From Bacillus sp. AFS059628 (GTDB lineage: Bacteria > Bacillota > Bacilli > Bacillales > Bacillaceae_G), in the NCBI RefSeq assembly GCF_002571225.1, contig NZ_NVEC01000019.1:1-34994 (forward strand): 34,994 nucleotides of DNA, given 5' to 3'. Positions 4,789-18,161 of the stretch are shown here, one piece after another; position 1 is the first letter of the stretch; each line of letters opens with the position of its first letter. The translations under genes were made by a program, and so were the position numbers. Under the pieces are notes generated by a model. It saw only the letters and a list, made by a program, of their open reading frames with translations, searched no databases and was not told the DNA's origin.

Positions 4789-5126
4789 TATTATCACCTT
4801 ATTTCATTAACTTTGATTACTTGTTCTAATTCGAATACAGAAAGTACCTGGATGTGTAAAAATGTCTTTAGGGCATTCCAAACCTCTCAGTGGTCATCTA
4901 ACTGTAAAGCGATAATAAAGTTATTGAATTTTGTTATGAAATACATAAGAGCCTTGCACATTTTATTGTAGCAAGGCTCTTTAAAGTTGTTTAATTTCTT
5001 GTACAATCACTGATTAGGAACTAATGGGTGTAATAATAAAATTGTTTAAAAATTCATTCTTTATACCGCGATCTCGTCTTTTTATGGAAGAAGGAAATAT
5101 TCTAATTTATTTACTCGTTATCACCA
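4789..5126. other. Intergenic region with hairpin and motif copies
   Basis: Holds a stem AAGAGCCTTGC (4947-4957) / GCAAGGCTCTT (4971-4981) with a weak T-run, and copies of an AATAAAGTTGTTTAATTT-like motif at 4914-4933 (divergent), 4982-5001 and 5035-5053. No gene is seen. Confidence 0.5.
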
Positions 5127-5873
5127 TTATTGTTGACTTGACAAATAGTTAGATGCCACTTTGTTTAGAAAATAAGTGTAACCTACTTGCCATTGTTCAA
5201 ACATGTTTCTGTGAAAATCGTCTACAATAAATAGCTCAGTTTGATTTAAGAAATCGTATGGTGTAGATGGATGACCATCTTTTTCTAAAAAGGATAGATG
5301 TTTTTTCACCCGTTCGAAAACCTTTGGGTCGTTTGCGGAGACACCTTCTTGTAAGAATTTAATCATATCTTCATTAAATGATTTTGCTTCAATGGCAGAA
5401 TCATTCATTGATTCTACATCAATAGTTTGATTCGTCAAATCAAAATCATATTCTTTTTTCAAATGTTCGTTTTGACCCTTTAATGCTTCTTGCCATTCTC
5501 CTTCAGTTTTAAAACCCCTAAACATTGATGCCATATCTAAATCGACTCCTTCTTTAGTATTTTTGATGGAGAAATTGATCGTATCAATTAGTTCTTTAAA
5601 TTGATTGATCTTTTGCTCTAGTAAATCCCTTTGCTTAATCAACGTATTCTCTCTGTCGATATTACCATCTAATAATTGTTTAATTTCCTTAAGAGGAAAA
5701 TCCAGCGCTTTGTAAAAAAGAATATGCTGTAGTCGTTCTAAATCCTTTTTTCCGTATAAACGATATCCAGCTTCTGTCGTTTGCTCTGGAATCAAAAGAC
5801 CTATCTTGTGATAATGGTGTAACGTCTTTACTGTTGTATGGGATAGTTTTGCAACTTCATTAACGGTATACAG
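5127..5873 (-). CDS. MerR-family regulator with TipAS-like ligand domain, 248 aa
   Basis: The reading frame from 5795 downward is open to a MerR helix-turn-helix that continues upstream without an ATG: YTVNEVAKLSHTTVKTLHHY then HKIGLLIPEQTTEAGYRLYG. The best start is CTG at 5873, 8 bases after AAAGGAGG; an ATA codon two triplets earlier is too close to the ribosome binding site. Domains: winged helix-turn-helix 1-70, coiled-coil dimer helix about 75-115, then a TipAS-like helical antibiotic-recognition domain to the C terminus. Proteins of this type bind thiopeptide-like or other amphipathic drugs and activate their own or efflux promoters. No target pump lies next to it, so autoregulation through the promoter at 5901-5931 is the visible output. 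A degenerate start codon or a decaying gene is possible. Confidence 0.8.
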   Translation of the reverse strand: MYTVNEVAKLSHTTVKTLHHYHKIGLLIPEQTTEAGYRLYGKKDLERLQHILFYKALDFPLKEIKQLLDGNIDRENTLIKQRDLLEQKINQFKELIDTINFSIKNTKEGVDLDMASMFRGFKTEGEWQEALKGQNEHLKKEYDFDLTNQTIDVESMNDSAIEAKSFNEDMIKFLQEGVSANDPKVFERVKKHLSFLEKDGHPSTPYDFLNQTELFIVDDFHRNMFEQWQVGYTYFLNKVASNYLSSQQ

Positions 5874-5900
5874 CTCTATTTCCTCCTTTCCATGCTCTTT

Positions 5901-5931
5901 ATACTAAAGTATCCTCTAAGGTAAGAGTCAA
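5901..5931 (-). promoter_or_regulatory. MerR-type promoter and operator
   Basis: On the minus strand TTGACT (-35, 5926-5931) and TAGTAT (-10, 5901-5906) are 19 bp apart, the stretched spacing typical of MerR-activated promoters. The spacer and -35 contain the dyad CTCTAAGGTAAGAG (5914-5927). This fits autoregulation of the downstream MerR gene. Confidence 0.65.
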
Positions 5932-5935
5932 CACT

Positions 5936-5977
5936 AAAAAAGGCTATATGTTTTTGTAGATCATATAGCCTTTTTAA
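5936..5977. terminator. Bidirectional terminator hairpin
   Basis: AAAAAAGGCTATATG pairs with CATATAGCCTTTTTAA around an 11-base loop. It separates the MerR promoter from the sparse region to its right and would end minus-strand transcription arriving from the 59-aa zinc-ribbon gene. Confidence 0.7.
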
Positions 5978-6253
5978 TTAAGTTTTCTTGCCTTGATTCT
6001 TAAAAAATATGGTCGTTTAATGGAATAAGATAATTTGCGTTTTTAACCATCTTTATTGTTATTTAACAGCTTTTGTGTGAAAATAATAAAGTTGTTTAAT
6101 TTTGTATCTAGAAATACAGTAACCATCTATCAAAAATGACTGATAGATGGTTACTAAAGACATTTAAAAACCCTAGTATTTCTTCCATTCTATGATTTTT
6201 TAGAGATAATACAGTGGTTTAATTACGGAAGGCGAATCGTTAAGAATAGCCTC
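5978..6253. other. Intergenic region with a perfect 15-bp hairpin
   Basis: The stem runs 6118-6132 and 6141-6155 (AGTAACCATCTATCA and its exact complement) around AAAATGAC, with no T-run on either side. An AATAAAGTTGTTTAATTTTG motif copy is at 6085-6104. No gene is seen. Confidence 0.5.
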
Positions 6254-6593: not shown

Positions 6594-7007
6594 ATCTCCG
6601 TACACTAACGATACCTGGAGAGCGCTTTTCCAAACATCCATCCCAACCTCGTTATATTCAGGATTTCCTTTTATAAGGCATGCCTTATGTATAGTAAACG
6701 AAACCGGATCAGCTTTTACATCTTGATATAGTAAAAGTGTAGGAACCCAATCAATTGGAGTATATAGGTGCATAAGATTCTCCAAACATTTCTTTAGAAC
6801 GCTATTGTCTCCTATGCAATGTATTTCACCGCTTATTGTATCCATTATGATTTTTTCACTCGGATGTATCTCTCTAACGTAAAATGGTACTTGTTCTTCA
6901 TAATGTTTATATATCCTTTTAAATGCTTCTATGGCCTTTTCTATTGATGTCGCATTAATAAAACTAATTTTATGTTCCGTAGTAATTTCTAATATGTATA
7001 GGCGCAT
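6579..7007 (-). CDS. Hypothetical protein, 142 aa
   Basis: ATG at 7007 follows AGGGGATGAATAATT. The N terminus (MRLYILEITTEHKISFINAT, then SIEKAIEAFKRIYKHY) has a beta strand, then a helix after a T-S-x-E-x-A pattern; this resembles the 90-aa protein at 19519-19791 (MKFYEVSYGERLAIKIIAAN, SPYEAVGFYL). The two may share a small alpha-beta domain. No catalytic motif is seen. It is the last gene of the minus-strand cluster and is separated from the DndC-like gene by a terminator-like hairpin at 7072-7104. Confidence 0.65.
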   Translation of the reverse strand: MRLYILEITTEHKISFINATSIEKAIEAFKRIYKHYEEQVPFYVREIHPSEKIIMDTISGEIHCIGDNSVLKKCLENLMHLYTPIDWVPTLLLYQDVKADPVSFTIHKACLIKGNPEYNEVGMDVWKSALQVSLVYGDNKVV

Positions 7008-7071
7008 AATTATTCATCCCCTATATTTTCTATATATTAATTGATACATTGTATCTTCTTACTTTTAATTT

Positions 7072-7104
7072 AAAGAAAGTACCTATTTTAATGGTACTCT
7101 CTTT
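7072..7104 (-). terminator. Terminator after DndC-like gene
   Basis: On the minus strand AAAGAGAGTACC pairs with GGTACTTTCTTT (one G-T wobble). The wobble is a mismatch on the plus strand, so the minus-strand RNA is the likely functional one. The T-run is weak. Confidence 0.5.
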
Positions 7105-7126
7105 AAATATATCTCCCATTTATATA

Positions 7127-8929
7127 TTAATCTATTGGAAATGACTCGTTTCCTAATTTCTTAAGTACTTTTGCAAAGAGATGGTTTGTCTCTTCGGATA
7201 GCATTTCATCTGTTTCTATTAATCTAGAAAGTCTATTTGTAAACTCTGCAGCATACAAAAGCTTCGTACTAGCTTTTTCATCTTCTTTAAACAATTGTTC
7301 ATTCTTCATGGATTGAATTAAGATCTGAATAAGCATTTGTTTATGTTGTTCGTTTTTCTTTCCATGGTACATATCCATCCCTAACCAATGACGGACAATT
7401 CGTTCAGCGTCTCTTGCTTCTGTTACATCAACTCTAGATACAACAAAGGTTAGCTTGTTCCAAGTTAATTTTGCTACTTCATTTGAATAATTGGAAGGAA
7501 AGAAGAAAAAGCTTCGGTGTGTAATTCTTTGCCGTTCTTTAATCCAACGAAATAGTTCCTGCTTTCCTAGATGAATATCTATTTCTACAAAAAATACGGG
7601 AAACGGTGACGTTGTTTTTTCCTCATTTATTGTACAATCGGGCTTGAAAACCAATTCACCTAGATATGCGTGGTATACAGGTTCCAATTCATCTCGATAT
7701 ACTCTAATTTCATCTGTTTCATACCAAGCTTGAAGAATAGCTTCGATCTCTTCTTCAGATATAAGAATCGTATTCATCTCTTGCTGCGTAAAAAGTAAAT
7801 ACTCTAAAAGCATTCTTCGACCTTCTACTGTAAGTCCTCCTGGTGCATAATCTCCTTTTTCTGTGCGATCAAACATAATATAGTCGTATTCAGCATGATA
7901 ATGAATTGAAAATAAGTCTGAATCCCTTTTATTTTCGTTTCTAAGGAGTGTTTGTAGACTGCGCCTATTCATTACATTCCGATAACGAATATCGTTTCTA
8001 ATGGAACGTAAGAAGCTTTTCCAGGATTGTAGATAAGCATAGTCCGTATACCCCTCACTTATTAGCTGGGTTAGCATTTTATCCTCACCATTCATCATTA
8101 AGCAAGTCCAACATCCACTACGTGAGTTTGCAGCTCCACAAGCATTTCCCTGCTGTTTCCCACCTGTTTTTATGCCACATTCAAACATAGCTTGTCCATA
8201 CTGTATGCTCATTTCTTCCACGTCCACACCAAAAGGCAGTATTTCTCTATCTAAAAGTAACATCCATACTTCATCACCGGTTAAAAATTTAACTGGATTA
8301 AAGCAGAGGATATTCTTCATGTCATTATGACGTGAAAATAAGGAATCATTACTTATCTCATGCTTTTGAATACTATGTCTTCTTCGCGCGCTCTCTTCAT
8401 TACGAACGGCCAGCATAAGCACACCATCATATTCATCAAAGCATTCTACTGCAGTAGTAGTTTGAGATGCTAATAAGATTTCTTTCATCTTTCGCTGCAT
8501 CGGTTTGACCTTGAGAGAGTCGGTACACCATCTTAATCTACTGTTTCCGCTCGGAGGTAAAACGCCTCTGCCTATTACCTTATACCAATATGATTCTTTC
8601 ATAAGTGGTTGCACACCATGGACGACAAATGGTAGGTTTTGCTCATTTGCACTTTCCTGGATCTTTTGTAATGTCCGTGAGATATAAGCCGTCATAGCAG
8701 GTGTTTCTACTCCAACTTCGGAAGTTAAGATATGAATTGGATTTGTACGTTCCTCTATTGGTAGCTCGGCAATTGCATCCCATAGTAACGTCAACATGGC
8801 AGAACTATCTTTTCCCCCACTGTAACCTACAAAACAACAATCTCGAGATAAATAGACTTTTTTCATTTCCTCTTTAATTTCTTTATATATATCCATCATT
8901 ATATTGTTATCCCCATAGCAAAGTATCAT
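7127..8929 (-). CDS. DndC-like PAPS reductase-family ATP pyrophosphatase, 600 aa
   Basis: N-terminal PP-loop SGGKDS at residues 37-42 (VGYSGGKDSSAML), then RWCTDSLKVKP at 134-143 and LAVRNEES at 173-180, all hallmarks of the DndC/PAPS-reductase family. A cysteine set C264, C273, C276 (CGAANSRSGCWTC) plus C251 or C135 matches the Fe-S ligands of DndC. DndC activates and transfers sulfur in DNA phosphorothioation. No DndA, B, D or E is in the window, so the partner enzymes are missing or different. The C-terminal 300 residues are an extra domain I do not recognise. The ATG at 8929 has no close ribosome binding site; AGGAGG at about 8950 lies before a 7-codon frame whose stop overlaps this start, so translational coupling is possible. 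A terminator lies upstream. Confidence 0.85.
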   Translation of the reverse strand: MILCYGDNNIMMDIYKEIKEEMKKVYLSRDCCFVGYSGGKDSSAMLTLLWDAIAELPIEERTNPIHILTSEVGVETPAMTAYISRTLQKIQESANEQNLPFVVHGVQPLMKESYWYKVIGRGVLPPSGNSRLRWCTDSLKVKPMQRKMKEILLASQTTTAVECFDEYDGVLMLAVRNEESARRRHSIQKHEISNDSLFSRHNDMKNILCFNPVKFLTGDEVWMLLLDREILPFGVDVEEMSIQYGQAMFECGIKTGGKQQGNACGAANSRSGCWTCLMMNGEDKMLTQLISEGYTDYAYLQSWKSFLRSIRNDIRYRNVMNRRSLQTLLRNENKRDSDLFSIHYHAEYDYIMFDRTEKGDYAPGGLTVEGRRMLLEYLLFTQQEMNTILISEEEIEAILQAWYETDEIRVYRDELEPVYHAYLGELVFKPDCTINEEKTTSPFPVFFVEIDIHLGKQELFRWIKERQRITHRSFFFFPSNYSNEVAKLTWNKLTFVVSRVDVTEARDAERIVRHWLGMDMYHGKKNEQHKQMLIQILIQSMKNEQLFKEDEKASTKLLYAAEFTNRLSRLIETDEMLSEETNHLFAKVLKKLGNESFPID

Positions 8930-9021: not shown

Positions 9022-9435
9022 TTAATCAACCGTGATTTCATGTATATTCAACTTGTTTAACTTTTCCATAAAAAAACTCATTACTTTTTGAGCATGTTGT
9101 ATAGCGATTAATCCATCTTGAACAGTAAGTGCTTCAAAATACGGATAACGAATGTCTGTAGCATAACCATTCAGCTGCACGCACTGTTCTAAAATCAATG
9201 AGAATTCCTCATCTAATTTCCGACAAGATTTGTGCAGCATTAAAAGGTTATGAGTTTTTGGGACTGTTCTACCGTTTAGTGCAAGAAACCCTTTTAGAAG
9301 TTTTTCCACACATTGTTGACTATGATAACAAATAATTGCAGTAGGGAAAGGTTTCATGTGAGTTAAGTAACTAGCAGAATCTAAATCAGATTTTGCAATG
9401 AATACCCACTCTTTTAGATCCTCAATATTTTTCAT
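9022..9435 (-). CDS. hepT: HEPN-domain toxin (HepT-like), 137 aa
   Basis: A small all-helical protein with the HEPN pattern: CYHSQQCVEKLLKGFLALNG then RTVPKTH at residues 56-62, which is the R-x5-H ribonuclease motif of HEPN toxins. The gene overlaps the end of the MNT gene by 14 bases, the usual tight coupling of this pair. Known HepT proteins cut RNA (often tRNA) and are silenced when the MNT partner adds AMP groups near the active site. Here the order is MNT first, HEPN second. Likely role: plasmid maintenance or phage defence. The toxin activity is inferred from the motif. Confidence 0.85.
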   Translation of the reverse strand: MKNIEDLKEWVFIAKSDLDSASYLTHMKPFPTAIICYHSQQCVEKLLKGFLALNGRTVPKTHNLLMLHKSCRKLDEEFSLILEQCVQLNGYATDIRYPYFEALTVQDGLIAIQHAQKVMSFFMEKLNKLNIHEITVD

Positions 9436-9808
9436 ATAGGACCGTCCCTTCTAGTGCAATCTTATGTTCCATAGTTACATTACGGCTAGCACGTTCTTGA
9501 AACTCTTCTGGACCATACACTAAAATATCAACTGGCGTTTCCATTACATCGTAAATCCCCCAATTGATACGATTAATGACTTCCCTTTTTCTTTCTCCTA
9601 CACCTTCCACAACAATACAGAGATCAAAATCACTGTCTTCATTTGGTGTACCATATGCATGAGAACCAAAAAGGATGATTTTTTGGACAGAAGACACAGT
9701 TTCACAAATCTTTTGCACCAATAGGTCCAATTCCCTTTGTACCTCTTCGTTAATCCGAATCACCCCTCGGATAATGTAATTAAATTGACGCTTAAGTATA
9801 TTATACAT
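9422..9808 (-). CDS. mntA: MNT-type nucleotidyltransferase antitoxin (MntA-like), 128 aa
   Basis: Contains the minimal nucleotidyltransferase signature: LFGSHAYG around residues 47-53, then DSDFDLCIVVEG with the two metal-binding aspartates D60 and D62. ATG at 9808 follows AAGGGGAAGGGAAACGT. MntA-type proteins use ATP to modify a tyrosine of the HEPN partner. The HEPN gene starts before this gene ends, so both are made together. Family identity is clear; the role as antitoxin is from known relatives. Confidence 0.85.
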   Translation of the reverse strand: MYNILKRQFNYIIRGVIRINEEVQRELDLLVQKICETVSSVQKIILFGSHAYGTPNEDSDFDLCIVVEGVGERKREVINRINWGIYDVMETPVDILVYGPEEFQERASRNVTMEHKIALEGTVLYEKY

Positions 9809-10220: not shown

Positions 10221-11069
10221 TTACCCCTCAATTGGTGCAGCTTTCATAAAAGCCTTTTGAGCTTGGAAAATGATATAGTGATTCGATACGGTACCTTCAT
10301 CAAAGAATTCGTTGACGAATTGAGCAACAGTCATGGCAGCGAACTTATTAGTAATAACGCGCTGTGGTTCTGAAGCAGCTAATTCGGAACAACTTAATTG
10401 ACTCGGAGCCGTTTCCTTTTTCGTAAAAGCATCCGGAAATAAATCACCAAGCGGTGAAAGAATGACCTCGCCATTCAATTTAACTCCACATACTGCTTGT
10501 CCGTTATAACCACTGTTTTTATAATCAGCTATTTGTTGAGGTGTCCAATGTCTTTTATTTACTTCTCTCCAATTATCAGGAACGGTTACAGCTGTATTCC
10601 CTACATCAATGTAAAGAAGATTATCCGATTGATGGAAGAATTGATGAAAGACCTCACGAGAAAACATATTATCTACTGCCCCAATTACAATTGGCAGATA
10701 CAAGTAGTCGTCTTTATGTTGTTTTTTTAATAAATCATATTTATTACCAAACAACTGCTGCATTGTTTCTATGTCTTCTATGTACTGTGACGTAAAGGAA
10801 GAGATAGGAACGTTATAGCCAGCTTTATATCGACGAGCCAGTACTTCTGCTTTGTATTTACCAACATCAGGTCGAATAAAGAGTTGATTTCCAAGATTTT
10901 TGGTTTCTACGATATCCGGATCGGCAACTACTATTTCACCGTTTAATTGGAAAATACTCATCATTTGAGCAATATGTTGTAAAATTAATCCTCCGTTTCC
11001 TCCAGCACCTATTAATACAATATGTGGTACAATCTTCTTTCCTTCTGCAATATCAATAACAATACTCAT
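10221..11069 (-). CDS. E1-like adenylating enzyme, PRTRC ThiF family, 282 aa
   Basis: ThiF/E1 Rossmann fold: nucleotide loop GAGGNGG at residues 21-27, DPDIVETKNLGNQLF at 50-64 (aspartates for ATP and magnesium, N58 and Q62), RPDVGKYKAEVLARRY at 66-81 with the active-site arginine and lysine, and AVDNMFSR at 131-138. The motif SCSE at 226-229 near the C terminus matches the conserved SCSL-type box of PRTRC ThiF proteins and C227 is a candidate thioester cysteine. No CxxC zinc pair is present. E1-like enzymes adenylate the C-terminal glycine of a ubiquitin-like protein. The E2-like and JAMM genes lie upstream at 11535-13194. ATG at 11069 follows AGGGGGCTATAAAA. Confidence 0.88.
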   Translation of the reverse strand: MSIVIDIAEGKKIVPHIVLIGAGGNGGLILQHIAQMMSIFQLNGEIVVADPDIVETKNLGNQLFIRPDVGKYKAEVLARRYKAGYNVPISSFTSQYIEDIETMQQLFGNKYDLLKKQHKDDYLYLPIVIGAVDNMFSREVFHQFFHQSDNLLYIDVGNTAVTVPDNWREVNKRHWTPQQIADYKNSGYNGQAVCGVKLNGEVILSPLGDLFPDAFTKKETAPSQLSCSELAASEPQRVITNKFAAMTVAQFVNEFFDEGTVSNHYIIFQAQKAFMKAAPIEG

Positions 11070-11081
11070 TTTTATAGCCCC

Positions 11082-11483
11082 CTAGTTTTCTTTTGATAGT
11101 GTATTCTTTAAATTTCGTAGAAATGAAATCGATAAATTTGTCATCCTATGCACGGTATACAAGTCAAATGAATGCATCACTAGTATCGATGCAGCATAAA
11201 TGACTCCTTCCTCTTGCACAATGCCTACAACATATTGAAGTAAATTCAACTGCACAACAAGCGTATCTACATATTCTTGATGTGTGTTTAAATCAATATG
11301 AGTATTCTTCCTCTGTCCTTCTAATGCTTCATATATGTGATTCATCTCTAACTTGCACATAAATTGAAATAGTTTATAGTCATCATGTGATTCCTCTATT
11401 GTTTGTTTATTCTTTGTAAGAACTAACATGTAATGCTTTATCTTTGTAAACATTGAAACGTGAATTGTTTTTAATGTTGTCAT
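11082..11483 (-). CDS. Hypothetical helical protein, 133 aa
   Basis: A mainly helical soluble protein (for example SHDDYKLFQFMCKLEMNHIY and YVVGIVQEEGVIYAASILVM). No family recognised. The first ATG at 11483 has no visible ribosome binding site: the preceding bases are a stem-loop (11492-11515) plus CTTTATT. A second ATG ten codons later also lacks one. Translation may depend on coupling, or the hairpin may control it. It lies 12 bp before the E1-like gene, so it is probably in the same unit. Confidence 0.6.
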   Translation of the reverse strand: MTTLKTIHVSMFTKIKHYMLVLTKNKQTIEESHDDYKLFQFMCKLEMNHIYEALEGQRKNTHIDLNTHQEYVDTLVVQLNLLQYVVGIVQEEGVIYAASILVMHSFDLYTVHRMTNLSISFLRNLKNTLSKEN

Positions 11484-11491
11484 AATAAAGA

Positions 11492-11515
11492 AAGAGACAT
11501 AAAAATATGTCTCTT
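11492..11515 (-). terminator. Hairpin between JAMM gene and 133-aa gene
   Basis: AAGAGACATA and TATGTCTCTT pair over 10 bp around TTTT on the minus strand, followed by TCTTTATT. It ends 9 bases before the ATG at 11483, taking the place where a ribosome binding site should be. Terminator or translational control element. Confidence 0.6.
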
Positions 11516-11534
11516 CTACGCCCCCCTTGTGTAT

Positions 11535-12500
11535 TTATTTTAAAAGTGTGATCCTACTTAAATCGTAATTTTGGCTTATCCCTTCCGTTGCATATTCTCC
11601 TGCAAATATAAAGTTAGGGTTAATAGAATGAAATTCTCCATCTATACAAGTGCGTACACGTAGGTCAGGGAAAACATCCTCTATTCTGCCAACAATTGCA
11701 TAAAGAATAGGAGCTCGTTCACTCTGATCATCTAATTTACTTGGCTCAGCTGAGAAACGATGATGACTGTGTATCTCCATAACTTTCATAGCGATAGACT
11801 GCATCTCTATATTCGTTTCTGGAATTACAATTTCAGTTGATACCTGCTGGTGTGGAAAGTCCATAAAATAACCACGTTCCTTATTGAAATAGATATCAGC
11901 ATGTAATTCGCAATCACATTTACGAGAAATGGCCTGTGCAATAATAATAAAGTCCATTAATAGAGTTCTCGGAATAAAATCTCCAGGTAAAAAGTGATCC
12001 CGCCAAGAACTAAGAAAAGAAAAAGGACAATCTGAAATGGATTGTCCCTCTACAATACTTGCCCCTTTTGCGCCGACAGTTAAAATCGGAAGTAGTGCAT
12101 TTGTATCCTCATCAAATTTAATGACAGTTAAGCCTTTAACAAACGAGGGATAACGTTGCTCTAATTTTACGCGAATGTCCTCTGCTTCTATTTTTCTTAC
12201 ATCTGTGGAATCTCCATTCTGAACGGCAATTCCATGTGTAATTTCTTCTTCTGTAAACCAATCTACTAACAGTATATCTCCAAATACTACATGACGAACA
12301 ACCGTTGTTGTATTGATTTTATCTAGACAATCTGTAGCTTTTGTAGCCTTAGCTTTTTTACTACTCTTTGTCTTATCTTTTGCTTTTTCCTTTTTCTCTT
12401 CCTTCTTAGCAGTGGCTTGCTCTGAAGCAGCTTTTTTCACTGGTACTGTTGTTTCCTCTACTTGTTTTTCCATATCAAAAAAACCGAATAAGTCTGTCAT
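11535..12500 (-). CDS. Ubiquitin-like domain fused to JAMM/JAB peptidase (PRTRC C + A), 321 aa
   Basis: Residues 1-58 are a lysine/alanine-rich linker. Residues about 60-146 match the PRTRC protein C type beta-grasp domain: AEDIRVKLEQRYPSF, then TVIKFDEDTNALLPIL and VGAKG at 142-146, where the family usually has VGTKG. Residues about 165-321 are a JAB/MPN domain with a perfect JAMM metal motif: H244-S-H246, seven residues, S254, two residues, D257. JAMM enzymes cut isopeptide bonds or trim precursors of ubiquitin-like proteins. The order suggests the peptidase could release its own N-terminal modifier after the VGAKG glycine. Good ribosome binding site (AGGAGGATTTTTTATT). The JAMM call is firm; the ubiquitin-like call rests on remembered family patterns. 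Confidence 0.85.
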   Translation of the reverse strand: MTDLFGFFDMEKQVEETTVPVKKAASEQATAKKEEKKEKAKDKTKSSKKAKATKATDCLDKINTTTVVRHVVFGDILLVDWFTEEEITHGIAVQNGDSTDVRKIEAEDIRVKLEQRYPSFVKGLTVIKFDEDTNALLPILTVGAKGASIVEGQSISDCPFSFLSSWRDHFLPGDFIPRTLLMDFIIIAQAISRKCDCELHADIYFNKERGYFMDFPHQQVSTEIVIPETNIEMQSIAMKVMEIHSHHRFSAEPSKLDDQSERAPILYAIVGRIEDVFPDLRVRTCIDGEFHSINPNFIFAGEYATEGISQNYDLSRITLLK

Positions 12501-12549
12501 AATAAAAAATCCTCCTAGTATGTTTGCTTTTATATAGTCCTGCTATTTA

Positions 12550-13194
12550 TTAAAAGGTAATTTCTGATTCTATTAGAATGGAATCATCAAAACTTTGGTT
12601 TTCAAATCGTTTAAATAACTCTCCTACTGGTTCCGTGTGAGTATGTGTAAGGTCATGGTTGAATGAACTTGCAAAGAATAAAACATGAAATGTTTCTAAA
12701 TCTTTTAAAGTCCGAAATTCAGGAATCACAACTCTTCCCGTACATACAGATCCATTAGCATGAACATTAGAGTAAGGGAATTGATATAACTTCCTTCCTT
12801 CTTCTAACTCCATGTCTTCTTTTACAGCAAAGACAGAGATATTCGTAACTCGTTTTTGGTACACCGTATAACGAAATAATAGACGTGGAAAGCCTACTTG
12901 TTGAAACGGTCGTTCAAAAAAATGAATATCCCACTGAGCCTTTGGTACTTCAATCCAAACAGCTTGTTTATCTCCACTCTTAGATAACACCTCGTGTTTT
13001 ATACAACCTTTTGGGAGTACGCCACTAGAGTAATGAGTATTATCTTGTGTACCCTGCTCCATAACTTCTTTTAAAGCTAAATAAAAGTCCTTAAAAGTAA
13101 CGGCAGTTTCTCCACGTGATAATTCGTTGTTAAATTGCTGAATGGTTACAATTCCTTTTGGCTCTAAAGCATCAAATATTGCTACTGTCTTCAT
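12550..13194 (-). CDS. E2-like protein, PRTRC protein B family, 214 aa
   Basis: The central motif LYQFPYSNVHANGSVCTG has the pattern of PRTRC protein B (prokaryotic E2 family D): a proline-asparagine strand, a glycine turn and one conserved cysteine, here C151, followed by VVIPEF. The family lacks the classical E2 histidine but keeps this cysteine. The C-terminal part includes FNHDLTHTHTEPVG, which is rich in histidines. E2-like proteins would accept a ubiquitin-like protein from the E1. The start overlaps the end of the 273-aa gene by 23 bases, so translation is coupled. Assignment is by motif pattern only. Confidence 0.78.
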   Translation of the reverse strand: MKTVAIFDALEPKGIVTIQQFNNELSRGETAVTFKDFYLALKEVMEQGTQDNTHYSSGVLPKGCIKHEVLSKSGDKQAVWIEVPKAQWDIHFFERPFQQVGFPRLLFRYTVYQKRVTNISVFAVKEDMELEEGRKLYQFPYSNVHANGSVCTGRVVIPEFRTLKDLETFHVLFFASSFNHDLTHTHTEPVGELFKRFENQSFDDSILIESEITF

Positions 13195-13993
13195 TTGTTA
13201 TGTCCCCCTGCGTATAGATTGTTTCCACTAAATCTAGTAACATCTCAAATTTATATGGTCCGTATAATGGTTCTTGGCCATAATAGAGATACAGAGATTC
13301 TTCATCAATTTGATAAGAATGCTGCACTGGATAACAATCTAGTAATTTAGAAATTTTTTCTTTATGCTTCGGTGATATGCCGTCTATTGTTTCAGCTATA
13401 GCACCCCATGTGTCCTCTGCTGCTTCCTGTATTTCCTTTAATGGTATGTCGAATAGTGTAGAGAGCTTTTCATACTCTTCTTCATCAATTGGAAAAGCTT
13501 CTAAGCCCATCTCTTCGATCATGTCCGTACCCAATTCTATAAATCCTTCTTCATGGTCTAATTCATAGATATTCTCTCGTTCTAAATACGAGGGAGAATA
13601 CTGTGTTACATCAATCGAAAGCGCATGCATGCTTTTAAAGTAACGTAAGAAATGAAATTGACATGAATAAAATTTAGATAGATTTATGTTTAATAGGTTC
13701 ATGGAAAGTAAGAAGATGACAATCGTATCTGTTGATTCTATGTCCTCCCACCTTATTGTTTGGTTTTCATCTAGAAAATCCACACAAGTAAGGATTTTAC
13801 CAATTGCTCCATGAGAGATTTTGTTGAAATCTATTTCTATATCTTTAGAAAGGCTTTCTAATATATATATTTCCTCTTGATATCTTTGTTTAATTTGTTC
13901 CCAACTTACGATGCTATAAGTTTTGTTTAACTTAAGTGATAATAAGTAGTTTGACATCGCTACATTAGATGAATAGCTAAATAATTTCTTCAT
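13172..13993 (-). CDS. Hypothetical protein, paralogue of the 14010-14822 product, 273 aa
   Basis: The N terminus MKKLFSYSSNVAMSNYLLSL resembles the next two upstream gene products (MKLLFTYNHQKVRKYLLSLK and MRYLFNQGNEMKVYIRIL). Other shared blocks with the 270-aa protein: EEEIYIL-type, IDFNKIS against IDFSKIS, YSPSYLERENIYE against YYPTYLEQDNFEE, and a C-terminal LYLYYGQEP against LYLFYDDDT. Acidic, soluble, no catalytic motif found. Ribosome binding site AGAGGACC. Its end overlaps the E2-like gene, so it belongs to the same transcript. Tandem duplication is the likely origin. Confidence 0.7.
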   Translation of the reverse strand: MKKLFSYSSNVAMSNYLLSLKLNKTYSIVSWEQIKQRYQEEIYILESLSKDIEIDFNKISHGAIGKILTCVDFLDENQTIRWEDIESTDTIVIFLLSMNLLNINLSKFYSCQFHFLRYFKSMHALSIDVTQYSPSYLERENIYELDHEEGFIELGTDMIEEMGLEAFPIDEEEYEKLSTLFDIPLKEIQEAAEDTWGAIAETIDGISPKHKEKISKLLDCYPVQHSYQIDEESLYLYYGQEPLYGPYKFEMLLDLVETIYTQGDITNEDSSNI

Positions 13994-14009: not shown

Positions 14010-14822
14010 CTAACTTGCTATATTTTTTGTTAACTGTATCTCTTCAAAGATACGAAGTAACATCTCAATTCGTTTAATTGCTGGAAAATATGTATCATCA
14101 TCATAGAAAAGGTAAAGTTTTTCCTCTTCAGCTTGGTAAAGCATACGTATATCAAACTGATTCTGGATTGAATGAAAGAAACTTTGCTCCTCTATCTTGA
14201 TATTAGAGAGCATTTCACCAATTGGACTCCATGCATTCTCAACAATTCGGTTTATCTCATCCATGGATATATGAAATAGATTCGAATATTTGATTAAGGT
14301 ATCTTTATCGTCGCTATCTACCTCTTCGTGATGTAATTTCATATCTCGAAGTAAGTCATCACCCCAGCTTTTAAATGAATCCTCACAATCGTATTCTTCG
14401 AAATTATCTTGTTCTAAATAAGTTGGGTAATAATCTTTTACAGGAATACCCAATCTATACATACGCATAAATATCTCCATAAGATACAAATGCGATGTAT
14501 AGAAGCAGGAAAGATCAGTATCTAAAGATTTTTCCGCAATCATAATTATTTCAAGTAAGGTTTTCGAATCAATTAAATCAATTGGGAAATTGGAGTCTTC
14601 CTCTAAATAAGAAACAGTAGCCATTACTTGTTGAATGGATCGTTCTGAAATCTTACTAAAGTCTATTTCTCTTGAGTGCTCTAAACAATCTAATATATAG
14701 ATTTCTTCTTCATGCTTCTTATCTGCAAGTAATCCATGCAGTAAGTGAGCATTCTTTTGCATTTTTAACGAAAGTAGATACTTTCTTACTTTCTGGTGAT
14801 TGTATGTAAATAATAATTTCAT
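14010..14822 (-). CDS. Hypothetical protein, tandem paralogue, 270 aa
   Basis: Homologous along most of its length to the 273-aa product just downstream (see the shared blocks there). Acidic and soluble, with no recognised domain. Its ATG overlaps the TGA of the 185-aa gene (ATGA), a sign of coupled translation. There is a 16-bp gap to the following gene. A partner in a complex with the E2-like protein is possible from position, but nothing in the sequence proves it. Confidence 0.7.
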   Translation of the reverse strand: MKLLFTYNHQKVRKYLLSLKMQKNAHLLHGLLADKKHEEEIYILDCLEHSREIDFSKISERSIQQVMATVSYLEEDSNFPIDLIDSKTLLEIIMIAEKSLDTDLSCFYTSHLYLMEIFMRMYRLGIPVKDYYPTYLEQDNFEEYDCEDSFKSWGDDLLRDMKLHHEEVDSDDKDTLIKYSNLFHISMDEINRIVENAWSPIGEMLSNIKIEEQSFFHSIQNQFDIRMLYQAEEEKLYLFYDDDTYFPAIKRIEMLLRIFEEIQLTKNIAS

Positions 14823-15376
14823 ACCTGGTTCCCCTTCGTCTTTTCTCGAATCATTGCTGCAAGACGGATTATAATTTCATAATAAGAAAGTACCCATTCA
14901 TCAAATGAGTACTGTTCATAACCATCCTCTAGAAATTCAATCAAAATATGACTGGGATACGCTTCACTTTGATAGGTGTTAAACGAAAATTCATGTAACA
15001 CGAATTGAAAATCAGATTGTGTTATATGTTCCGAGCCTATACATAAATAGTAACCAGCTGTATCGAAGTAACATCCTTCCGCAGCCATAGAACTAATATC
15101 TGAAGCAAAATTCAAATACATGTCTTCTGAGCTAAATAACGTCCCATCTAACAGGTCTTCTTCAGTTCCAAAGGCAAAGTGACAAAATATACGTGTTTGC
15201 TCGTTAAAACGCGCAAGCGACTCGAATAATAGTTCACTTGTGATATGCAACTTGTCCCTGTGAAAATCATTGATATTGATTAAGAATGGGGTGTTATATT
15301 TACGAATTAATTTTTGTATACGTAGTATCCGAATGTATACTTTCATTTCATTTCCTTGATTAAATAAATATCTCAT
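14819..15376 (-). CDS. Hypothetical protein sharing the paralogue N terminus, 185 aa
   Basis: The start at 15376 is kept because it gives MRYLFNQGNEMKVYIRILRI, which aligns with the N termini of the two downstream paralogues (M-K/R-x-L-F ... Y-L/I-x-x-L-K/R). An internal ATG at 15346 has a slightly better ribosome binding site (AAGGAAATGAA). The rest (SSEDMYLNFASDI, CYFDTAGYYLCIGSE) does not match the paralogues clearly. It overlaps the 109-aa gene by 17 bases and the next by 4. Function unknown. Confidence 0.65.
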   Translation of the reverse strand: MRYLFNQGNEMKVYIRILRIQKLIRKYNTPFLININDFHRDKLHITSELLFESLARFNEQTRIFCHFAFGTEEDLLDGTLFSSEDMYLNFASDISSMAAEGCYFDTAGYYLCIGSEHITQSDFQFVLHEFSFNTYQSEAYPSHILIEFLEDGYEQYSFDEWVLSYYEIIIRLAAMIREKTKGNQV

Positions 15377-15689
15377 CTTCTAGCCCCTGCTTTTCTACAT
15401 CTTCTAGTTGTTCAGTGAAAAGATGTAAATGTAGCATTTCTTTTAATACACAATCTGGACCACTTATACGAAATGAATTTCCACTATAAAACGTGACATA
15501 ATGCCGTAGCTGTTCAAATTGCTTTTCAAATTCATCTATATGTTCTAATGGTATGTTTTCTAAATCAGGCATTTCGTTCGCAATAAATCCATTTATAATC
15601 GATTCAAAGGATTGACGAAGTTCTTGATTATTAGGAAGGACTTCTTTTGACTGTAAAAAGTCAAAGAAGTCACTGTGATTCATACTCAT
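15360..15689 (-). CDS. Hypothetical acidic protein, 109 aa
   Basis: ATG at 15689 follows AAGGGGGCATCCAA. Acidic, helical protein (DLENIPLEHIDEFEKQFEQL) with a C-terminal EDEIFI. No family is recognised. It lies 12 bp after the sliding clamp gene and overlaps the next gene, so it is part of the clamp-to-E1 transcript. Confidence 0.65.
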   Translation of the reverse strand: MSMNHSDFFDFLQSKEVLPNNQELRQSFESIINGFIANEMPDLENIPLEHIDEFEKQFEQLRHYVTFYSGNSFRISGPDCVLKEMLHLHLFTEQLEDVEKQGLEDEIFI

Positions 15690-15701: not shown

Positions 15702-16814
15702 TTACACGCGAACCGGTAGAATTAACTGCAGATTAGAGTGAGTTGTATCCTCTGCTCCCACTACAACGATAGGTCTCTGATTACTAATCATTTTTATCGC
15801 GATTGTTTCAGAAGTTATCGTTTGTAGTGCTTGCAGCAGATATTCCACATTACAAGCCAATGTAAATGCTTCTACTTGATTACATGGAATTTCTACACTT
15901 GCAGTACCTACTTGAGAATTTTGTGGTTTAAGATGGATGCTTTCTTTTCCTTCTGACGTAAGCACGATTAAGGAAGAAAATGCTGAAAGCTGCTCCAACG
16001 TGTTTTTAAATTCTTCACGTGATAGTTGTATTTCACTTTTAAATTCGTCGGGTACCATACGTGCCGTATCAGGATATGTACCAGCTAGTAATCTAGACTG
16101 ATAGATAATACTTTCGCCACGGATTAACAGCTGTGTATCACTAATGAGCTTTAATTGTAAATTTGTTTCACGATTAAAGAGCTTAAGAGCTGTTTTAAGA
16201 GACTTAATTGGTAACACGACTTCACCATCTTTTGCGATAGTGATCTTTGTACAATCAAAATGTAAACGGGCTAAACGGTGAGCATCAGTTGCTATACTAA
16301 AGAACTTATCATCAACTGATTTTAAGTTCACACCTGTTAGGATCTTACGTGTATCCATTGCAGGAATAGCATGTAATGTTCCGTTGGCCATTGATATAAA
16401 TTGTTCTTGCGAAAGTGAAATCCAGTCTTCCCCTGCTTCAATTTTGATTTCAGGATATTCTTCATGATCCATGGTACAAAAGCTAAACTGTTTCTTCATA
16501 CTTTCTACAATTTTCAGCTCATTATTTTTATGTTCAAGACCGATGAATTCACTTTTGAATTTCTTAATCGTTTTAAGTACCGGAGCAGCTGCAAAAAGCA
16601 CCTTGCCCGGTTCAGTACAATCCCCACTGTTTACGTTAAAGCGAGTTACTAATGTTACTGTTTCTGTACCGTCTGAACCCATTAGAATCATTCCCTGTTG
16701 ATTACAATTTAATAAAACACCTTGTAATGCGGGCATTGGGTTTTTCACGTCTACATTAGCACTAGCTTTCTCTAATTTTTCGATAAATAATGTACGGTTA
16801 ATAGTAAATTTCAT
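15702..16814 (-). CDS. dnaN: Plasmid-encoded DNA polymerase III beta sliding clamp, 370 aa
   Basis: Full-length beta clamp with three repeated domains. Recognisable blocks: MKFTINRTLFIEKLEKAS, PMPALQGVLLNC, the middle-domain ATDAHRLARLHF, and EFKSEIQLSREEFKNTLEQL. The start is ATG at 16814 after GGAGGGATTTATT; an earlier in-frame start at 16829 lies upstream of this site. The length is normal for the family (about 375). It encircles DNA and tethers polymerases and repair proteins. The chromosome already has one, so a plasmid copy may recruit plasmid-specific partners, or give independence from host clamp inhibitors. The C-terminal end ILPVRV carries a usual clamp ending. Confidence 0.92.
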   Translation of the reverse strand: MKFTINRTLFIEKLEKASANVDVKNPMPALQGVLLNCNQQGMILMGSDGTETVTLVTRFNVNSGDCTEPGKVLFAAAPVLKTIKKFKSEFIGLEHKNNELKIVESMKKQFSFCTMDHEEYPEIKIEAGEDWISLSQEQFISMANGTLHAIPAMDTRKILTGVNLKSVDDKFFSIATDAHRLARLHFDCTKITIAKDGEVVLPIKSLKTALKLFNRETNLQLKLISDTQLLIRGESIIYQSRLLAGTYPDTARMVPDEFKSEIQLSREEFKNTLEQLSAFSSLIVLTSEGKESIHLKPQNSQVGTASVEIPCNQVEAFTLACNVEYLLQALQTITSETIAIKMISNQRPIVVVGAEDTTHSNLQLILPVRV

Positions 16815-16837
16815 AATAAATCCCTCCAAAAAGTAAT

Positions 16838-16894: not shown

Positions 16895-17743
16895 TTACGC
16901 ACTTTGTTGTTTTTTTAACTGTTCTATGAGTTGATGAATGGCTTCTGTATGTTCTTGAAGTAACCATTCTCTAAAGGTCGTAATATCACCAGGTATAAGA
17001 GCAGATAACCAACGGTTAAGCTGTTTCTCATTTCCAGGACGAATATTCTTTGCTTCGTGAATCAACTGTAAACTAGTTATCATTCCTTCTAAACCACCAA
17101 TTGTTGTATCCTCAAATGTTCTCGCTTGCGCATTATAATTGTGATTATAGGCAAGTAGAATATCCCTAGAGGCGATGTTTAATGGCTTTGCAAGTTCTTG
17201 GATCTTTTGAATTAATAATCCTAGACTTGGTTGGCCATTCGATTGTTCCTTCTGTAAACTTCCTTGTTTATTTTTTTGCTGTAACATAGTAGGTGGTGTG
17301 AAATAATACCCTTTCTTCTGGTAAGAAACATAGATATCATTTTTCCCCTTACTATTTGTAGTAAGCTCTACTTTATGTGGTTTTATATTATATAAATATC
17401 TTCCCACACCCCAAAGGACTGCTGCCCTTTTTAAGCTATTGGAAAATCCACCTTTTACAGCATTGTAATCAGATTCTTCACTTCCATCCTCTTTTGATAT
17501 CCAACGTTCATTCAAAAACACTGAAATGGTACATTTTGTTGCCTTCTCACCCCATTTTTCATAAGACACTTGCCATTTATCAATACCAAAGACTTCATCA
17601 AATCGGTCCTGAATGGCACGTGCGTCAACAAATGGAGCTACATATGCAAAAAAACGACCTTGGCTTTCAAATGTATGTGTAATTTTCCACCCTAATTGTT
17701 CGAATGGAAATTCAGCTTGTAAACTTTCCATTATATTCGTCAT
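16895..17743 (-). CDS. Rad52/Rad22-family single-strand annealing protein, 282 aa
   Basis: The first ~150 residues match the Rad52/22 family: an aromatic-rich strand FFAYVAPFVDARAIQDRFDE, WQVSYEKWGEKATKCTISVF, and the conserved GGFSNSLKRAAVLWGVGRYL. These proteins form rings that anneal complementary single strands and load recombination machinery, as in phage recombination systems. After a glutamine-rich linker (about 165-180) lies a C-terminal helical domain of ~105 residues that is duplicated as a separate protein at 17787-18161. Good ribosome binding site AGGAGGATTATT. A terminator follows. Confidence 0.88.
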   Translation of the reverse strand: MTNIMESLQAEFPFEQLGWKITHTFESQGRFFAYVAPFVDARAIQDRFDEVFGIDKWQVSYEKWGEKATKCTISVFLNERWISKEDGSEESDYNAVKGGFSNSLKRAAVLWGVGRYLYNIKPHKVELTTNSKGKNDIYVSYQKKGYYFTPPTMLQQKNKQGSLQKEQSNGQPSLGLLIQKIQELAKPLNIASRDILLAYNHNYNAQARTFEDTTIGGLEGMITSLQLIHEAKNIRPGNEKQLNRWLSALIPGDITTFREWLLQEHTEAIHQLIEQLKKQQSA

Positions 17744-17786: not shown

Positions 17787-18161
17787 TCACTCTTTCTTTC
17801 GAAATTCATCAATCATTTCACATATAATTCCTCTGTTTTCATGTAGCAGCCAATCCTCATAGGAAGTAATATCTTTTCCTGATTGAATGGATAGGCGCTT
17901 ATTCAAATCTTCTATACTTTTACAACTGATATTCCTTGCTGCATAAATGAGACTTAAGCTTACTTTCAAATCTCTTAAATCAGAAATGGTAATATCCTTA
18001 AATGTCGTAGCTTTCGTATTGAAGTTTTGATTGTGCGCTTGCAGCATTGATACAGAACTGATCCAACAAGGATTAGCTAGTTCTTTAATTTCTTCAATAA
18101 TGTCATGTAAATGAGCATCATTTTGTAATTTACCTTGTGATTTTTCAATGACTAAATTCAT
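17787..18161 (-). CDS. Stand-alone paralogue of the Rad52-like C-terminal domain, 124 aa
   Basis: Residues about 20-124 align with the last ~105 residues of the adjacent Rad52-like protein: IKELANPCWISSVSML against IQELAKPLNIASRDIL, AHNQNFNTKATTFKDITI against AYNHNYNAQARTFEDTTI, DITSYEDWLLHENRG against DITTFREWLLQEHTE. It lacks the annealing domain. It could compete with or regulate the full-length protein, or bind the same partner. ATG at 18161 follows TTAGGGGGAAACATC. The small-RNA unit at 18237-18410 ends just upstream. Confidence 0.8.
   Translation of the reverse strand: MNLVIEKSQGKLQNDAHLHDIIEEIKELANPCWISSVSMLQAHNQNFNTKATTFKDITISDLRDLKVSLSLIYAARNISCKSIEDLNKRLSIQSGKDITSYEDWLLHENRGIICEMIDEFRKKE

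Follow-up and report, generated by a model that had tools for sequence, protein, structure and literature searches.

A 34,994-nucleotide stretch of DNA from Bacillus sp. AFS059628 (contig NZ_NVEC01000019.1; the whole stretch is called the window below) carries, on its minus strand, genes for an E1-like adenylyltransferase, an E2-like protein and a JAMM protease that is fused to a probable ubiquitin-like (Ubl) modifier, together with genes for a plasmid-type sliding clamp (DnaN) and a Rad52-family annealing protein. This cassette is real, plasmid-linked and present in many Bacillota, and its architecture is fairly secure. As to its function, we put at roughly even chances the proposal that it is a plasmid-borne ubiquitin-like conjugation system coupled to replication and recombination genes, with a modifier that processes itself and that would act at the plasmid clamp.

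The three enzymes that the preliminary description had placed here are all present on the minus strand, and their motifs and profile matches agree. The E1 contains GAGGNGG, RPDVGKYKA and SCSE and matches the ThiF profile PF00899 at 42.6 bits (cut-off 28.1). The protein of 214 amino acids (aa), whose E2-like nature had been left to a profile search, does find a match: it scores 70.9 bits against PF14460 (Prok-E2_D), above the gathering cut-off of 25, and has the conserved Cys of Prok-E2 family D within the motif NGSVCTG. The JAMM protein carries HSHHRFSAEPSKLD, an exact HxHx7SxxD motif, and the upstream Glu of JAMM metalloproteases (Glu198, invariant in an alignment of 14); it scores 22.3 bits against Pfam Prok-JAB, slightly under the cut-off of 25, and aligns with protein A of the PRTRC cassettes (PRTRC_A) with an hhalign probability of 91%.

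We compared 77 sources overall, 35 of them short stretches of ~3-4 kb; compared loci are labelled Lnnn, L001 being the closest relative, a plasmid of Bacillaceae bacterium C02. The predicted catalytic residues are invariant: C227 of E1 occurs in 70/70 open reading frames (ORFs) and C151 of E2 in 72/72, counts that include near-copies and three proteobacterial PRTRC sets and leave out ORFs shorter than 180 aa (E1) or 160 aa (E2). The JAMM motif is found in 65 of 69 ORFs, and the four exceptions are pieces of two interrupted genes, one in L022 (where Rfam group II introns were matched) and the other in L053/L058 (interruption deduced from the space that separates two matches on the same contig). 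Sequence searches of solved structures with E2, the Ubl domain and Ubl-JAMM gave no convincing match.

Between the E2 and E1 genes we recognised no small modifier encoded on its own; the N-terminal half of the JAMM protein probably fills this gap. All 53 fused ORFs, a count with near-copies, have Gly at the Ubl/JAMM junction, a result that is partly by construction because the profile marking where the domain stops came from 31 sequences whose ends were chosen by eye; Gly146 is invariant too when 14 full-length sequences are aligned without trimming. Naturally unfused relatives are stronger evidence. Among 13 of them (16 modifier-only ORFs after setting aside the interrupted L021, L038, which the end of the locus truncates, and L059, which duplicates L057), eight end at or near this point: four exactly at the Gly (L006, L036, L037 and L056) and four two or three residues past KG (L057, L066, L067 and L069). 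On the E1 tree the label 'unfused' requires four changes, with L021, L038 and L053 counted as fused. The PRTRC_C proteins of three proteobacterial plasmids have the C-termini GTKG, AKG plus five residues, and KTKG.

An AlphaFold2 model of the Ubl domain, built from 15 sequences, is compact (predicted local distance difference test 87.7, predicted template modelling score 0.75), with low confidence at the C-terminal end only. Its predicted elements, a short helix followed by E-E-H-E-E-H-E-E, fit a beta-grasp core into which a further segment is inserted. Mostly from context and the Gly end, we consider it quite probable that the domain is ubiquitin-like.

The order Rad52-DnaN-X-Y-E2-UblJAMM-E1, in which X and Y are two further cassette proteins, occurs plain in 15/42 sources (near-copies included) and in close variants in some others. 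In the window it reads Rad52-DnaN-X-Y-(two 270-aa paralogues)-E2-UblJAMM-(133 aa)-E1. The preliminary description had noted interleaved helical proteins of no known family; these divide into X and Y, which are conserved members of the cassette, and a lineage-specific group comprising the two ~270-aa paralogues (32% identical to each other) and two 133-aa ORFs, which no source among the 77 contains apart from the window and L001. The N-termini of the 270-aa proteins and Y look alike by eye, and a comparison gave no support to the idea that the former are copies of the latter. X ends in an acidic-hydrophobic tip (e.g. EDDFI) in 35/42 ORFs, near-copies included, a feature reminiscent of the SSB tip.

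A plasmid origin of the window is supported by its similarity to CP045534.1, a 162-kb plasmid of strain C02, which matches at 96% across the entire 9.2-kb query and is the sole near match among 72,556 plasmid records. When E2 was used for a protein search with an E limit of 1, 139 plasmid records matched; among the 60 matches listed, 44 were from Bacillota, on plasmids of 110-628 kb. The Ubl-JAMM profile, applied to whole genomes, was found in 16/397 (order of G002) and 16/392 (order of G005), samples that contain the previously known carriers G002 (the first) and G003 and G005 (the second). Three scans of viral contigs yielded no relative; two phage records matched E2 weakly (7e-6 and 0.01).

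A sliding clamp gene was present on 13 of 14 cassette-bearing Bacillota plasmids, in 10 cases with a score that exceeds the family cut-off, and on one of three proteobacterial PRTRC plasmids. With the window clamp as query, DnaN was matched in 183 of 72,556 plasmid records, a single query that will miss divergent clamps. At least 29 of the 44 Bacillota E2 plasmid records, among the matches listed, also have a clamp, a biased lower bound because it was mostly read from the clamp matches listed (60 of 183); the survey of 14 plasmids is the fairer test. At the C-terminus, 19 of 24 cassette clamps have LPVR followed by a few residues, and four more have LPYR or LPIR. Among the residues that we take to form the clamp pocket, a simple YPD pattern occurs in 20/24.

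In many relatives, the tail that precedes the modifier domain is similar to peptides that bind the clamp. The clamp-binding motif consists of Q, an aliphatic residue, any residue, L or M, and F or L; a six-residue form exists, and the Gln is important and not strictly required (PMC11139829). We found Q..[LIM]F in the tails of 26/46 non-redundant proteins, compared with a mean of 0.68 and a maximum of 4 in 500 rounds of shuffling. A stricter form of the motif occurs in 7/46 tails (shuffle 0.21), including QLSLF, QLNLF, QLALF and QFDLF.

The mechanism we propose would run as follows. The modifier would be made as a precursor composed of a flexible tail, a Ubl domain ending in KG, and the fused JAMM protease, which, in cis or in trans, would cut past KG and free the C-terminal glycine. 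E1 would adenylate the modifier and then load it on Cys227; E2 would accept it on Cys151 and transfer it to lysine side chains of proteins around the plasmid sliding clamp, to which the tail, with its clamp-binding-like motif in many relatives, may dock the modifier. JAMM would subsequently take the modifier off its targets. Docking is least well founded for the window itself, whose tail has no Gln.

Several findings count against this proposal, some concerning the modifier and others the clamp. The remaining five of the 13 unfused modifiers lack KG (L068, L070, L071 and L074, with EKNN, and L072, with EKMGGAV). A Foldseek search of the Ubl model against the PDB returned 0/335 matches at E<=0.001 (best E 0.45); protein G domains, which have a beta-grasp-like fold, recur among the weak matches, and this proves nothing. 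In sequence, the modifier is linked weakly to Prok_Ub and to PRTRC_C, the latter with an hhalign probability of 14%: only 1/27 family members matches PF14454 and 1/27 matches TIGR03738, both weakly, and the window domain has no match to the profile of PRTRC protein C. Pairwise comparisons with three PRTRC_C proteins gave z>3 in 8, 3 and 0 of 69, with medians of 0.1-0.2 and window values of -1.5 to 1.2. As for the clamp, CP032411 has the cassette and no clamp match, and a plasmid of large size might encode a clamp for some other reason, the 13/14 count not being size-matched. The pocket pattern ATD.HR, itself a simple one, appears in only 8/24 cassette clamps. The window tail reads MTDLF, 20/46 tails lack Q..[LIM]F, many tails (e.g. 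QTDIF) deviate at positions 2 and 4 from the rule as published, and tails from related plasmids do not count as independent cases.

Some of these same observations are what one would expect if the conjugation cassette were as described and its N-terminal motif docked instead to E1, E2 or Y, DnaN being only a neighbour in a replication operon. Neither the window nor C02 has the Gln in its tail, one pocket pattern is confined to a third of the clamps, and a broader motif, [DNSTHA][LIM]F, is found in 42/46 tails (shuffle mean 4.06), more widely than the clamp form. Several lineages also have no DnaN in the stretch compared. However, of the Bacillota plasmids surveyed for clamps, nine have no DnaN in that stretch (L005, L006, L030, L032-L034 and L036-L038), or ten with L035, and all of them except L005 match a clamp elsewhere on the plasmid (three below the family cut-off); canonical-looking tails (QLSLF, QLNLF, QLALF and QFDLF) also recur across divergent relatives. 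We regard docking within the cassette as rather unlikely, and as the foremost alternative to docking at the clamp.

A sulfur-carrier pathway, in which the modifier would be thiocarboxylated and donate sulfur, is improbable. It would suit an E1 of the ThiF family, the DndC/PAPS-reductase-like protein encoded downstream in the window, and the PAPS-reductase-family genes near the cassette in Aromatoleum and Paenibacillus rhizovicinus; against it stand the invariance of the E2 Cys and the presence of the DndC-like protein in only 2/41 other sources (counted with a one-sequence profile, many stretches stopping a few kb past E1). Very improbable is an anti-phage role of the kind of cyclic-oligonucleotide-based anti-phage signalling systems (CBASS) of type II or of Bil: when PADLOC models were run on ten window proteins, E1 matched E1-E2 models weakly (best 3e-07), but E2, Ubl-JAMM, X and Y had no match at E<=0.01, the Pfam matches of the cassette proteins include no cyclase, and the neighbours are replication and recombination genes instead.

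The preliminary description had also assigned the three enzymes to the PRTRC cassette while noting that ParB and the actin-like protein were missing. The enzymes are indeed related to PRTRC, but membership itself was rejected, on scores under the NCBIfam cut-offs and on missing parts. E1 scores 80.2 bits against PRTRC ThiF (TIGR03736, cut-off 144.75), E2 62 bits against protein B (TIGR03737, cut-off 131.45) and the JAMM protein 32.4 bits against protein A (TIGR03735, cut-off 101.8). The absences it noted were borne out. PRTRC ParB (TIGR03734), annotated on three PRTRC plasmids, was found on none of six related plasmids, the closest (CP045534.1) included, in a search that had no PRTRC positive control. 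Protein D, the PRTRC actin-like protein, has no match in CP045534.1 and matches 3/10 Bacillota plasmids below the cut-off; it is a weak marker even for PRTRC, because only two of three PRTRC plasmids match it, one of them above the cut-off. Because all three enzymes fall below the NCBIfam cut-offs and ParB is absent from the six plasmids, we do not class the cassette as PRTRC.

The likeness to PRTRC, as on pMOL28 of Cupriavidus metallidurans, extends to the plasmid home, the E2 of family D, the ThiF E1, the JAMM protein, the order E2-JAMM-E1 and, probably, a small Gly-ended modifier. In contrast to PRTRC, the modifier is here joined to JAMM in most sources, and Rad52 and DnaN are present. X and Y appear unrelated to PRTRC_E and PRTRC_F, candidate identities that were tried and dropped at hhalign probabilities of 0.04% and 0.06% from shallow alignments. 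A tree of 53 E1 sequences, from which 17 near-copy loci were omitted, splits the Bacillota set from the PRTRC E1s and one Anaerolineales E1 by a branch with support of 100/99 and does not resolve the window's own place inside the Bacillota set.

Another precedent is operon type 6d, which comprises a Ub-like protein, a JAB, E1-like and E2-like proteins and a helical protein, with B. cereus and B. thuringiensis among the species listed (Iyer et al. 2006, PMC1779556). Type 6d has the same kinds of gene as the present cassette, but its Ub-like protein is small and standalone, unlike the modifier-JAMM fusion found here; a word search of the article found none of 'sliding clamp', 'DnaN' and 'replication' (PMC1779556). 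We class the cassette as a variant of the 2006 type 6d/PRTRC kind that stands out because its modifier is fused to JAMM and because it is associated with a sliding clamp encoded by the plasmid. Phage TAPI-TAPK modules function in tail assembly and are not known to have an E1 or E2 relay. In these modules, and in Ubl fusions thought to be JAB-cleaved, Ubl and JAB form one unit, as here: JAB was proposed to free the Ubl at its last Gly, and one E. coli prophage has a TAPI-JAB fusion (PMC1779556).

Features of the cassette and its flanking replication and recombination genes in the window.
Feature	Position	Strand	Remarks
E1-like ThiF-family adenylyltransferase	10221..11069	-	282 aa; predicted catalytic Cys227 at 10389-10391
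133-aa ORF between JAMM and E1	11082..11483	-	accessory, lineage-specific; no convincing family
Ubl-JAMM precursor	11535..12500	-	321 aa: N-terminal tail, probable ubiquitin-like domain, KG junction, JAMM protease
JAMM protease domain	11538..12062	-	HxHx7SxxD at 11730-11771; conserved Glu198
Probable ubiquitin-like domain	12063..12338	-	residues 55-146, ends VGAKG at Gly146
N-terminal tail start MTDLF	12486..12500	-	site of relatives' clamp-binding-like Q..[LIM]F; Gln absent
E2-like protein, Prok-E2 family D	12550..13194	-	214 aa; predicted catalytic Cys151 at 12742-12744
273-aa protein, paralogue of neighbouring 270-aa protein	13172..13993	-	lineage-specific insertion in cassette
270-aa paralogue	14010..14822	-	lineage-specific
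Y, cassette protein, no assigned function	14819..15376	-	185 aa; position conserved among relatives
X, conserved cassette protein	15360..15689	-	109 aa; acidic-hydrophobic C-terminal tip EDEIFI
DnaN, plasmid-type beta sliding clamp	15702..16829	-	three Pfam beta-clamp domains; solved clamps matched
Rad52/22-family annealing protein	16895..17743	-	PF04098 47.3 bits

Beside the Rad52 gene lies a 124-aa ORF (17787-18161) whose product is similar to the adjoining Rad52 protein (1.1e-19), perhaps a duplicated fragment. Downstream of the cassette, the DndC/PAPS-reductase-like protein (7127-8929, 600 aa) matches PADLOC DndC at 252 bits, and a distant relative of it is encoded beside PRTRC in Aromatoleum. 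A HEPN and nucleotidyltransferase pair at 9022-9808 resembles MNT-HEPN toxin-antitoxin modules. Group II introns repeatedly interrupt genes of the cassette. In the C02 plasmid (L001; 5804-8582 and 15355-18012) they interrupt Rad52 and E1, and Rfam matches together with split ORFs indicate that Rad52, Ubl-JAMM or E1 is interrupted in L009, L010, L012, L021, L022 and L036; in L022 the break falls at the HSH of the JAMM motif. We found no group II intron in the window. Lastly, L035 (Lysinibacillus irui) encodes two 361-aa E2-like proteins two genes apart (4922-6007 and 6922-8007), and no Ubl-JAMM or E1 was found within the 11.5 kb compared.

The operon type was already predicted in 2006 (PMC1779556). 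In the open-licence literature we found no functional test of it and no link to a clamp, and PMC5512222 mentions neither a sliding clamp nor an E2-like protein. The fusion has a visible processing site, and four unfused versions end at the same glycine, so that the end of the mature modifier can be tested. It is a tentative idea, which we hold at rather less than an even chance, that the cassette represents clamp-linked ubiquitin signalling in bacteria, in which a tail-docked, self-processing modifier and a dedicated E1-E2-JAMM set would tag and untag proteins at the plasmid replication fork. The eukaryotic clamp PCNA undergoes modification, and the clamp link, if true, would be a bacterial parallel to it; it would also show concretely where the system acts, namely in replicating large Gram-positive plasmids, and would make it directly testable.

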